Source of the DNA: a virus
Virus record (IMG/VR): IMGVR_UViG_3300044623_001268
Location: 1-54,389 of that record
DNA: 54,389 nucleotides
Direction: 5' to 3' (one strand)
Shown: positions 2,972-38,418 of the stretch, in pieces
Layout: each line of letters starts with the position of its first letter
Position numbering within the stretch: the first letter of the stretch is position 1
Position numbers and translations under genes: made by a program
The notes under the pieces: generated by a model
Told to the model about the DNA's origin: nothing
The model's database searches: none
The model's input: the letters and a program-made list of their open reading frames with translations, nothing else

Positions 2972-3610
2972 ATGGGACAGTATTACAAAGCAATTTTCTT
3001 AACTGAAAAAAACAAACCATTAGCGAGTGTATCTTCATACGACTTTGGAAGTGGGGCAAAATTAATGGAACATTCGTGGATGAAAAATCCAATGGTTCGT
3101 TTTGTAGAAAGACAATTAATGGTAGCACCACAAAAAGTTGTATGGGGTGGAGATTACGCAGACCACGAAGACCCAAGCACACTTTCAAAAACTGAAATCA
3201 AGATATTGGCTGATGAAGAAAGCGAGTATTGGAATAGCAAAGTGATTGCTGAAAAAGGGGCGAACTTATATAGTTTATCCGAAACTATCGGAAAATTAAC
3301 ACACGATGAAACCACAAAGAATAAGTACGAACACGATTACAAAGGGGTTGCACCATTGAATGCAAAGTATTTGATTAACCACGATAAAAAACAATTTGTG
3401 GATAAATCAAAAACACCAAAAGATGCTGATGGTTGGCAAATTCACCCATTACCATTGCTAACTTGCGAGGGCAACGGACGAGGTGGGGGCGACTTTAGAG
3501 GTGAAAGTGATTTGATAGGATTGTGGGCGAGAAACCTAATTAGTGTTGCAAGTAAAAAAAGCGACATACCGAAAGGGTTTGAAGAATTGATATTTGATAT
3601 TAAAGAGTAG
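2972..3610 (+). CDS. Conserved MGQYYK-family phage protein
   Basis: A 212-residue protein of a type I recall from phages and some bacteria that begins MGQYYKA and contains a Gly-rich GNGRGGGDFRG segment (about 168-178) followed by LIGLWARN. These two segments are the probable functional core; no activity is known to me. It starts at the first ATG after a standard leader. A (TTTG)n tract and a strong intrinsic terminator follow the stop, closing the first block of early genes. Confidence 0.75.
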   Translation: MGQYYKAIFLTEKNKPLASVSSYDFGSGAKLMEHSWMKNPMVRFVERQLMVAPQKVVWGGDYADHEDPSTLSKTEIKILADEESEYWNSKVIAEKGANLYSLSETIGKLTHDETTKNKYEHDYKGVAPLNAKYLINHDKKQFVDKSKTPKDADGWQIHPLPLLTCEGNGRGGGDFRGESDLIGLWARNLISVASKKSDIPKGFEELIFDIKE

Positions 3611-23389: not shown

Positions 23390-23405
23390 TATGAAAACAA
23401 ATTGT

Positions 23406-24023
23406 ATGAAAAATTTATTTATAAAATTATCGATAGTTGCAGCGGTTTTATTTACATTTGCATCTTGTAAAAAAGAATACCCATATCCTAGCGATGGTTA
23501 TCCAAAGAGTAAACCAGATTCATATTATTTATGGGATAGTGACACTACAAATAAAATAACGTTGTGGGGTAAATTTTTGGTTATTGATGCTGTTATGTAT
23601 GTTGACAATCATGAAACTGGTAAAAAAACAAAGTATAATCATTTTGATGCGACCAAAATAATATCTAGTTTGAGATGGGGTGGCAGTATGTTTGATATAG
23701 AAACGATAATTAAAGATTCAACAACTTACTCATTTTATAAACCCTTGAATTTCCCTGGTACTGGAAACTTTGTTTTGAATAGTGACACAACAAAACATTA
23801 TGGCGTAAGTTATATGGGTTTTAATAAAGCGATTGTTGAAGACCCCGTTTATGGAATGTCACAACAAATGTTAGGTGGTAGTTCTAGACCTTTTAGTGGT
23901 CAACTATTAAATTACGCTGATAAAACCGTTGTTATGCAAATACAAGAAATGGAAGGTAGTATTGATGGTTATAACTGTAGGTATTGGTCACAATTAACTC
24001 TTAAAAAGATTGAGACGTGGTAA
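23406..24023 (+). CDS. Phage-encoded lipoprotein
   Basis: 205 residues from ATG 23406. Basic start (MKNLFIK), hydrophobic core (LSIVAAVLFTF) and lipobox FAS-C (C21), followed by KKEYPYPSD. A charged stretch after the lipidated Cys is typical of Bacteroidota surface-exposed lipoproteins, though this one is basic first (CKKE). The remainder is beta-rich with many aromatic residues and no domain I recognise. Phage lipoproteins such as T5 Llp block the receptor after infection; a similar superinfection-exclusion role is a reasonable guess. Own host-type promoter. Confidence 0.7.
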   Translation: MKNLFIKLSIVAAVLFTFASCKKEYPYPSDGYPKSKPDSYYLWDSDTTNKITLWGKFLVIDAVMYVDNHETGKKTKYNHFDATKIISSLRWGGSMFDIETIIKDSTTYSFYKPLNFPGTGNFVLNSDTTKHYGVSYMGFNKAIVEDPVYGMSQQMLGGSSRPFSGQLLNYADKTVVMQIQEMEGSIDGYNCRYWSQLTLKKIETW

Positions 24024-29581: not shown

Positions 29582-30271
29582 ATGGAAAAAATTATAGAAA
29601 AATTACAAAGAGAAGAAACACCTCTAACATCTAGTGTTGAACGAGATGAATTTATAGAAGCAAGTGAAACTGCATTTGATTGTAGATTTGACGGTACTTC
29701 AACCTTTCACCCATGGAAATTACCCAACAAATTACCCAAAAATTTTAAGATAGGTGTAATCGTAGGTTCTAGTGGTTCTGGTAAATCAACTATGTTGAAA
29801 CAATTTGGTGCTGAAGAAGAACCCAAATGGGAACCAAACAAATCAGTTATTTCACATTTTGATAACCCAGAAGATGGAATCAACCGATTAAGTTCAGTTG
29901 GTTTTAATTCTATACCTTCATGGTACAAACCTTATCATGTTTTATCCAATGGTGAAAAATTTAGAGCTGATTTAGCTCGTAAGATGAAATCAAATGCAGT
30001 AATAGATGAATATACCTCAGTAGTTGATAGAACTGTCGCTAAAGCTGCCTCTATGGCTTTGGCTAGATACGTAAAGAATAATGACTTGCAGAACATAGTC
30101 ATATCCAGTTGCCACATGGATATTGTGGATTGGTTGGAACCAGATTGGGTTATCAATACGGACACGGGTGAACTGATGGACGGTTTTTTTTTGTCCGACC
30201 AGAAATCAATATCAAAATATATCGTACAACAAATGATAGTTGGGGAATGTTTAAAGACCATCACTATTTAG
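29582..30271 (+). CDS. ABC-type ATPase, N-terminal half of a split ABC-GNAT protein
   Basis: 229 residues as read. Walker A GSSGSGKST (62-70), signature LSNGEK (121-126), Walker B AVIDEY (139-144) and the H-loop His178 in SSCHMD are all intact. No membrane segments, so it is a soluble ABC ATPase. After ...DTGELMDG the frame runs through a T9 tract (30184-30192) into about 28 residues that look unrelated. Shifting -1 at the tract joins it to the GNAT frame, giving the ABC-ATPase/acetyltransferase fusion known as COG2401. The tail is therefore probably an artefact of a frameshift. Confidence 0.8.
   Translation: MEKIIEKLQREETPLTSSVERDEFIEASETAFDCRFDGTSTFHPWKLPNKLPKNFKIGVIVGSSGSGKSTMLKQFGAEEEPKWEPNKSVISHFDNPEDGINRLSSVGFNSIPSWYKPYHVLSNGEKFRADLARKMKSNAVIDEYTSVVDRTVAKAASMALARYVKNNDLQNIVISSCHMDIVDWLEPDWVINTDTGELMDGFFLSDQKSISKYIVQQMIVGECLKTITI
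30184..30192 (+). other. T9 tract, putative -1 frameshift site
   Basis: GGT TTT TTT TTG in the ATPase frame. A -1 slip reads TTT GTC CGA CCA and continues VRPEINIKIYRTTNDSWG into the GNAT domain without a stop. Confidence 0.6.
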
Positions 30272-30675
30272 ATGGAAACGTTAATAAAGCGTCTAGATGT
30301 TATGTGGGAGTTTGGAATGACCAAGTTGTATCTTTCTTCGCCTCGATTACACTTCCTAGTGGAACTCTTAAAAATGCATGGAGAGGTCATAGGAATGTTG
30401 TGTTACCAGATTTTCAAGGCATGGGGATTGGTGTAAGATTTTCCACTGCAATTGCTCAACATCACATAGACCAAGGATACAGATATTTTTCTAGAACAGC
30501 ACATCCTAGATTGGGAAGTTTCTGGGAGAATTCTCCGTTATGGAAACCAACTAGCAAGAACAAAAAAATAAGAAAAGATGTAACTAGTGAAAACACATAT
30601 AAGAATCACGTGTATGATAATACTAGATTATGTTTTAGTTATGAGTACATTGGTGAAATAAAAAAGGAGGTCTAA
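30247..30675 (+). CDS. GNAT acetyltransferase, C-terminal half of ABC-GNAT protein
   Basis: 142 residues from ATG 30247, but the open frame extends back to 30172 and encodes a natural domain start (RPEINIKIYRTTNDSWGMFKDHHYL). The acetyl-CoA loop is LPDFQGMGIGVRFS (about 58-71), matching Q-x-x-G-x-G. HHYL near the start and RTAHPRLGSFWENSPLW later fit COG2401-type domains. The substrate is unknown. A terminator follows directly. Confidence 0.8.
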   Translation: MFKDHHYLDGNVNKASRCYVGVWNDQVVSFFASITLPSGTLKNAWRGHRNVVLPDFQGMGIGVRFSTAIAQHHIDQGYRYFSRTAHPRLGSFWENSPLWKPTSKNKKIRKDVTSENTYKNHVYDNTRLCFSYEYIGEIKKEV

Positions 30676-37419: not shown

Positions 37420-38418
37420 ATGAAAAATAAACAAATAATTAGTCCAGTTGGTCTTAAAGGAAATCAAATCCTTGAACGTCAATTATCTCTTATGGGTATC
37501 AAACCTATAAATGAAAATGAAAACAAAACAAATTCAGCTGTTGAATTAACTAAGATTGGACCAGATGATAACGCATATGCTATTGTTAGAGAAAATCATG
37601 AATATTATATCAAAAGAACAGATAAAAAATCTGGTTTGGTTTTGGAAGATTTCAAATATATTGGTGGTTTACAAAATAAAAAAGATGAATCTTACCCTAC
37701 TTATGCAAGAGCAATCAAACAATTAAACTTTAAGTTTAAATCTTTGGCTGAAGCTTTTAATAAAGGTGGTGATATCAACGTATTCGAAGATGATAATTTA
37801 TTATCTGAAAACGCTAGAGCTGGTGGTTTCTCTCAAATGGAAGGAAATGGTTTTTCTGGTGAAAACAATTTTGAAGAAAACAAAGAAATTATAAACAAGT
37901 TTGAGAAACAATATGGTGATGATGGTGAAAGTGCTTACTACGCTACTGCTAACAAACAAGGCAGAAACCCAGAAACTTTTGAAAAAAATGAAGGTATGAT
38001 GGGTGATGATGTTGAAGAAGGTTTGAATGAATTTGAACAAGCTATTGAAGAAATGATGGCTAGAGAAGATGGTGCTAACAATGAAATAAGTCATGATGAA
38101 TTTGACCTTGTTGAATATCTTAAATCTAAATTAGTTGAAAGAGGTATGGAAGTAACTCCAGAGAATATTTCAATGGTATCATTGGCTTATGAAGGTGGAA
38201 CTATTACTGATTTAGGTAAAATTGCATCTATTTTAACACAAATGAATGAAGAATTAAGTGGTAAACAATACAAAATAGATGCTAATCATAATGGTGAAAT
38301 TGATGGTGGTGATTTTCCTATTTTAAATTCTATGGAAGAAAGTATCAAAAGATTAGACAAAATGATTACTTCATTATCTGAAGGTACTGTAAAAAAAAAA
38401 GTAGCAACGAAAAAATAA
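37420..38418 (+). CDS. Virion structural protein, N-terminal part
   Basis: 332 residues. Residues about 45-115 form a compact domain (DNAYAIVRENHEYYIKRTDKKSGLVLEDFKYIGGLQNKKDESYPTYARAIKQLNFKF) that I associate with structural proteins of T4-like phages. The rest is acidic and ends SEGTVKKKVATKK at a stop just after an A10 run. In the -1 frame the run continues into SSNEKINEIKYKLKIDAPAK, the start of the next frame, so the real product is probably one protein of about 940 residues. Confidence 0.7.
   Translation: MKNKQIISPVGLKGNQILERQLSLMGIKPINENENKTNSAVELTKIGPDDNAYAIVRENHEYYIKRTDKKSGLVLEDFKYIGGLQNKKDESYPTYARAIKQLNFKFKSLAEAFNKGGDINVFEDDNLLSENARAGGFSQMEGNGFSGENNFEENKEIINKFEKQYGDDGESAYYATANKQGRNPETFEKNEGMMGDDVEEGLNEFEQAIEEMMAREDGANNEISHDEFDLVEYLKSKLVERGMEVTPENISMVSLAYEGGTITDLGKIASILTQMNEELSGKQYKIDANHNGEIDGGDFPILNSMEESIKRLDKMITSLSEGTVKKKVATKK
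38391..38400 (+). other. A10 tract, putative -1 frameshift site
   Basis: GTA AAA AAA AAA G in the upstream frame. The downstream frame is open from 38382, so a -1 slip within the tract joins both frames. Confidence 0.6.

Follow-up and report, generated by a model that had tools for sequence, protein, structure and literature searches.

At the E. coli prfB site, AGGGGGUAUCUU UGA C, an SD-like sequence is followed after 3 nt by the codon CTT, with a +1 slip (PMC8710568), and prfB accounts for every +1 CUU-stop case in RECODE (PMC10885494). Transcriptional slippage on A9 or T9 runs is described for Thermus thermophilus dnaX and for IS elements (PMC1088944), and from the same paper we took the criteria for a transcriptional slippage site: a run of about nine A/T residues, conserved in length, in coding DNA that avoids such runs. 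Other systems shift by −1 on X XXY YYZ heptamers with a stem-loop. On the protein side, GNATs coupled to ABC ATPases have been predicted to acyl-modify DNA bases, with phage pT24 as an example (Iyer et al. 2021, PMC7824862); the word 'frameshift' is absent from that paper, and no two-product output is described in it. The literature searched, which gave partial coverage, contained no report of a recoded ATPase-acetyltransferase and no paper naming COG2401, the family cited in the initial annotation of our locus, and the main text of the GeneTack survey of frameshifted genes does not mention 'acetyltransferase'.

Here, we analyzed a viral locus with the same domain pair as the system of Iyer et al., in a window of 54,389 nucleotides (the whole stretch of DNA under study, IMG/VR record IMGVR_UViG_3300044623_001268). 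Like dnaX and the IS elements, it carries a run of exactly nine that is conserved between homologues, and two products with a shared N-terminus are predicted from it. In contrast to dnaX, in which straight reading gives the long form, the short form is what straight reading gives here, and a catalytic domain would be gained by the shift. Sister lineages with A AAT TTT or G GTT TTT and strong stem-loops, as well as Enterococcus phage 9184 with A AAA AAG, resemble the −1 heptamer systems, whereas the window has T9 without a stem-loop; G GAT TTT, G GTT TTT and G GGG GAG are imperfect versions of X XXY YYZ.

Organization of the locus

Translation bore out the frames given in the initial annotation. 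The ATPase ORF starts with ATG at 29582, reads T9 as GGT TTT TTT TTG and stops with TAG at 30269-30271, while the −1 frame is open from 30172 and runs through FFFVRPEINIKIYRTTNDSWGMFKDHHYL into the GNAT domain, ending at 30675 (Table 1). A −1 shift at T9 is predicted to yield a fusion of 364 aa. An ATG-started GNAT ORF is also present at 30247. Elsewhere in the window's long ORFs, the sole other A/T run of at least nine is an A10 at 38391-38400, near the 3' end of the ORF at 37420-38418. The window also encodes, at 23391-24023, a small protein whose start (..FTFASCKKE..) resembles that of a lipoprotein; we take it to be of a Bacteroidota-associated type and a hint at the host.

Table 1. Features of the ATPase-GNAT locus, in window coordinates
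Feature	Position	Strand	Basis
Product of straight (0-frame) reading, 229 aa: ABC-type ATPase with a tail of 26 codons	29582-30271	+	ORF; N-terminal half of PHROG 11143; model
Walker A, GSSGSGKST	29765-29791	+	G62, S64, G65, G67 and K68 invariant (alignment of 13)
ABC signature-like LSNGE	29942-29956	+	L121, S122, G124 and E125 invariant (alignment of 13)
Walker B and next motif, VIDEYTSVVD	29999-30028	+	D142, E143 and S146-D149 invariant (alignment of 13)
TGA closing the GNAT (−1) frame 5' of T9	30169-30171	+	−1 frame translation
T9, proposed recoding site, containing heptamer T TTT TTT at 30184-30190	30184-30192	+	Kept in relatives
0-frame tail LSDQKSISKYIVQQMIVGECLKTITI plus stop, over the first 26 GNAT-frame codons	30191-30271	+	Synonymous constraint
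GNAT domain, −1 frame, 160 codons	30193-30675	+	Translation; C-terminal half of PHROG 11143
Stretch 3' of T9 tested for a stimulatory stem-loop: none	30194-30253	+	z +0.42, 200 shuffles

The pairing of the two domains is not a chance arrangement, as the two halves match a single profile, PHROG 11143 (357 aa), in the same order, the ATPase with an E value of 1.3e-61 (residues 19-200) and the GNAT domain with 1.1e-39. Besides this profile match, conserved Walker A, signature and Walker B motifs and a GNAT fold place the locus in the ATPase-GNAT fusion family (PHROG 11143). The ATPase and GNAT matches in Pfam and NCBIfam were all weak or generic, and a sequence search of solved structures retrieved generic ABC proteins and nothing convincing for the GNAT domain. 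The modelled fusion of a relative (L017; pLDDT 91.8, pTM 0.86) was confident across both domains and matched a Leptospira phage LE4 protein; parts of it also matched ABC domains and GNATs. In several phages, ParB-like or DNA-methylase genes lie directly upstream, and the fusion perhaps functions in acyl modification of DNA, as the literature predicts (PMC7824862). Our searches also matched pT24, the example given there. In this Tenacibaculum phage (L330), the ATPase frame continues across the junction into the GNAT domain, within which a TGA lies at 3570-3575; the gene is annotated as two ABC genes.

Conservation of the offset in relatives

A first search of IMG/VR with the ATPase as the query returned 31 relatives at 65-90% identity. 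In the comparison of tract length and frame that the initial annotation had proposed, 28 of the 31 had the exact T9 and an intact GNAT domain at −1, and the other three were T10 in-frame fusions. Later searches extended the collection to 329 sequences. Of their 213 distinct junctions, 51 had T9, one had T8 and 17 had other sequences at −1, while two T10 and 139 other junctions were in frame. Three members carry the GNAT domain at −1 without a long homopolymer (AAT TTT A in L060 and L163, GAT TTT A in L058), and together with these the T9 clade is monophyletic (SH-aLRT 99). The two T10 members fall at separate positions within the clade, and the T8 member (L142) still has the −1 offset. In a further member (L182, 1495-1818), an in-frame loss has removed about 120 internal residues of the ATPase, from the P-loop to the signature, with T9 and the intact −1 GNAT domain kept.

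Further −1 lineages were found outside the T9 clade. Bacteroidota genes from Chryseobacterium, Flavobacterium and others carry A9, with two copies in one complete genome; G GTT TTT occurs in Lactococcus phage P335 and Streptococcus phages Javan141 and MismyG, and A AAA AAG sits at the same junction in Enterococcus phage 9184. In three Firmicutes phages (L335, L360, L361), G GTT TTT is followed by a long CCCCAC...GTGGGG stem, and the two parts are annotated as separate genes. In Thomasclavelia phages TR-TP2 and TR-TP1 (L114 and L341), ATPase and GNAT form two overlapping ORFs at −1, and the slip site is possibly G GGG GAG. Oenococcus phages, too, showed no clear slip site. One Bacteroidota MAG (L345) has A8 rather than A9 and its GNAT domain in the +1 frame, reflecting decay, variation or a sequence error. 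About 120 Acinetobacter plasmids matched the Bacteroidota ATPase distantly, in an ABC domain. In the broader tree, −1 states are found at no fewer than four places among in-frame members, with some of the placements on long branches.

Polymerase or ribosome at T9

The initial annotation had placed a −1 frameshift at T9. The offset held up, while the signals around the run fit slippage by RNA polymerase better than a ribosomal shift. Downstream stem-loops were strong at heptamer sites (z of −4.6 to −5.2 for A AAT TTT, −3.7 for G GAT TTT and −4.0 to −4.5 for G GTT TTT) and lacking at the homopolymers (median −0.26 for T9, 0.12 for A9). Just two of the 45 members tested for T9 had z below −3. The T8 member L142 is one of these (z −4.7); the T9 member with a stem-loop is L026. 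Across the T9 clade, a stem-loop was present in all four non-T9 members and in one of the 44 with T9 (Fisher 2.6e-5, without correction for shared ancestry). These five sequences show covariation in the stem, with 94.5% of cells paired and four pairs changed on both sides, compared with 24-38% in slid controls. T9 junctions had no consensus downstream structure, and the SD core was found at 0 of 52 T9 and 0 of 11 A9 junctions. Both an upstream SD and a downstream structure were thereby ruled out as stimulators at T9.

In the window, the slippery heptamer T TTT TTT is in frame, with neither a downstream structure (z +0.42) nor an SD core upstream. Its run of nine Ts has a conserved length, and such runs are avoided in coding DNA: T9-clade loci contain 48 runs of nine or more inside ORFs, 42 of which are the T9 site itself, and 20 outside ORFs, in about one-fifth of the DNA. 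Given the fixed length of nine, the rarity of such runs in ORFs and the lack of SD and stem-loop, we place polymerase slippage first for T9 and A9. The shift in the window is thus rather more probably made mainly by RNA polymerase, which would add one U in a share of transcripts and so bring the fusion into frame.

The main competing mechanism, which we consider a serious though less probable candidate, is ribosomal −1 slippage on T TTT TTT with tandem Phe tRNAs, with polymerase slippage playing a minor part and the two products unchanged. It draws on the good ribosomal heptamer within U9, which stands in frame where sister lineages carry A AAT TTT or G GAT TTT followed by a stem-loop, sites that look like ribosomal −1 frameshifting; on A AAA AAG at the same junction in phage 9184; on the offset kept with T8 in L142; and on the stem-loop of L026. 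However, a run of almost always exactly nine is longer than a heptamer requires, SD is absent and most T9 members have no stem-loop, the strongest being that of the T8 member. RNA polymerase slippage accordingly stays our preferred mechanism for T9.

Dual coding of the tail

We next measured excess codon identity in the GNAT frame, that is, codon uniformity beyond what codon usage predicts, a statistic without a model of phylogeny. In the T9 clade the excess was 0.30 over codons 1-26, 0.06 over codons 27-60 and 0.04 over codons 61-140, and in A9 Bacteroidota members the same measure gave 0.30, 0.05 and 0.08, with phylogeny not modelled in either set. The high-constraint stretch of the T9 clade coincides exactly with the 26 codons that overlap the tail. 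All nine Bacteroidota members and 44 of the 45 non-redundant T9 members have a tail of 26 codons, and the 0-frame tail SDQKSISKYIVQQMIVGECLKTITI is conserved among T9 members. By these sequence measures, the tail is a dual-coded, conserved stretch, contrary to its initial description as unrelated. In the model of the short form (pLDDT 85.6), the ATPase is well folded and the tail (residues 205-229) is disordered; our guess is that the short form tunes the number of acyltransferase domains per ATPase assembly.

Together, these observations make it very probable that one gene programs two proteins. Straight reading would give the ABC-type ATPase with its 26-residue dual-coded tail, and a net −1 shift at T9 would join the same ATPase to the GNAT acyltransferase. 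From sequence, we infer that both proteins are made, and likewise their ratio.

Three readings would dispense with programmed recoding. In the first, which is improbable, ATPase and GNAT are two separate genes, the latter expressed from the internal ATG at 30247 or by coupling, and no fusion is formed. The ATG-started ORF and the annotation of some Firmicutes phages as two ORFs are in line with it, but homology in the GNAT frame begins at VRP, 18 codons 5' of that ATG, and constraint is present on the junction side of it; moreover, most homologues are single in-frame fusions and the relative's fusion folds as a single confident model. Still less probable is phase variation, with replication slippage at T9 toggling the fusion, or gene decay. 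T10 appears twice in the clade, A8 occurs in one Bacteroidota MAG and L182 has lost most of its ATPase, yet run length hardly varies even between deeply diverged members, both domains remain intact, the non-homopolymer stem-loop sites retain the offset and both frames are constrained. A sequencing or assembly error hiding a T10 run, and with it an ordinary in-frame fusion, is the least credible of all: homopolymers are error-prone and two T10 in-frame lineages exist, but the identical T9 recurs in dozens of independent contigs, L058, L060 and L163 hold the −1 offset without it, and errors would not leave a dual-coding signature over the tail. The T9/−1 arrangement is therefore genuine and not a sequencing artefact, and of the two options in the initial annotation, programmed frameshifting or read error, constraint and conservation favour the former.

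A prfB-like +1 signal in in-frame members

In most family members, phage and bacterial, ATPase and GNAT share one frame, the cultured Leptospira phage LE3 and Gordonia phage Jace among them. Their junctions, for example GGGAGGTAT CTT CGA C, TGGAGGTCT CTT CAA C and AGGGGGTCT CTT AGG C, have the layout of prfB, with an SD-like AGGGGG or AGGAGG, 3 nt, CTT and +1. They differ from prfB in that CTT is followed by a sense codon (CGG, CGA, CAA or AGG) instead of a stop, that the proposed shift leads to the short form and that GTT, CAT and GAA also appear as slip codons. The SD core was found in 120 of 139 in-frame junctions versus 82 of 3270 background windows from the same ATPase genes, and again in 34 of 41 junctions fetched later. 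A CTT codon lay close to the junction in 95 of 141 cases, the other apparent slip codons being GTT, CAT and GAA. In GC-rich bacteria, CTT made up 25 of 28 junction Leu codons versus 10% elsewhere in the same genes. At the HHYL motif of these bacteria, the first His was CAT in 32 of 33 and the Tyr was TAT in 33 of 34, codons by which Ile residues at the tail end are retained. Several in-frame members, mostly near or in Bacteroidota, have no SD at the site.

In-frame members, too, showed excess constraint over these junction codons, which suggests +1 reading there. Were the +1 tail translated, constraint would be expected to extend just as far as the tail, a prediction that could have failed. 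Members with tails of about 26 codons showed a small excess of 0.16 over codons 14-26 and then 0.05; those with tails of 38-52 codons showed 0.20 over codons 27-45 and then 0.05; and those with tails of 55-75 codons showed 0.20 over codons 46-60, 0.15 over codons 61-75 and then 0.09 (phylogeny not modelled in any of the three groups). The prediction thus held. The position of the stop codon was discarded as evidence for the tail, since a +1 stop at HHYL is common in in-frame members as well and says little alone.

In-frame relatives thus combine an SD 3 nt before the slip codon with a +1 frame under coding constraint. For them, the fusion would be the default product, and the prfB-like site (SD, 3 nt, CTT or a similar codon) would give rise to the short form. 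The window carries no such site, its GNAT domain being at −1 and an SD being absent. The unit that the initial annotation saw as joined at T9 stands as a probable source of two products; the phenomenon is not specific to T9, the proposed output being family-wide and most often associated with a prfB-like +1 site.

Proposed replacement of signals and SD use of the host

Across the large phage and bacterial family, the two-product output would be under selection. Two products from opposite default frames and different signals point to convergence on the same output. We consider it likely that the family, across phages and several bacterial phyla, is held to two products, with the default frame and recoding signal swapped at least four times. 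On the same likely reading, the signals exchanged are an SD-driven +1 frameshift, a −1 heptamer with a stem-loop, which would produce the fusion in some lineages, and slippage on a nine-base homopolymer.

SD use differs between these groups. The SD core was present at 2% of ORF starts in T9-clade loci and 6% in A9 Bacteroidota loci, whereas among in-frame loci the share was 43% for viral and 32% for cellular ones; the Firmicutes −1 phages, with SD at 63%, are an exception to the pattern of SD loss. Bacteroidia seldom use SD, and Weeksellaceae, including Chryseobacterium, have an altered anti-SD and no prfB frameshift (PMC8710568), while other Bacteroidia retain the prfB site. Where SD use is low, an SD-dependent signal might work poorly, and the signal swap may in part be driven by hosts that no longer use SD.

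Implications

If this reading is correct, the few known cases of programmed recoding in bacteria and phages would be joined by a widespread gene family, and a +1 signal of the prfB type would occur beyond prfB itself. It would also reveal a gap in annotation: members of −1 lineages are called as split or broken genes, and in in-frame lineages the short product is overlooked. With a constant product pair and a changing signal, the family would offer a natural experiment on how one recoding mechanism replaces another, for example when ribosomes stop SD pairing. Finally, it leads to a testable claim about a predicted DNA-modification enzyme, namely a requirement for ATPase and acyltransferase in a set ratio.
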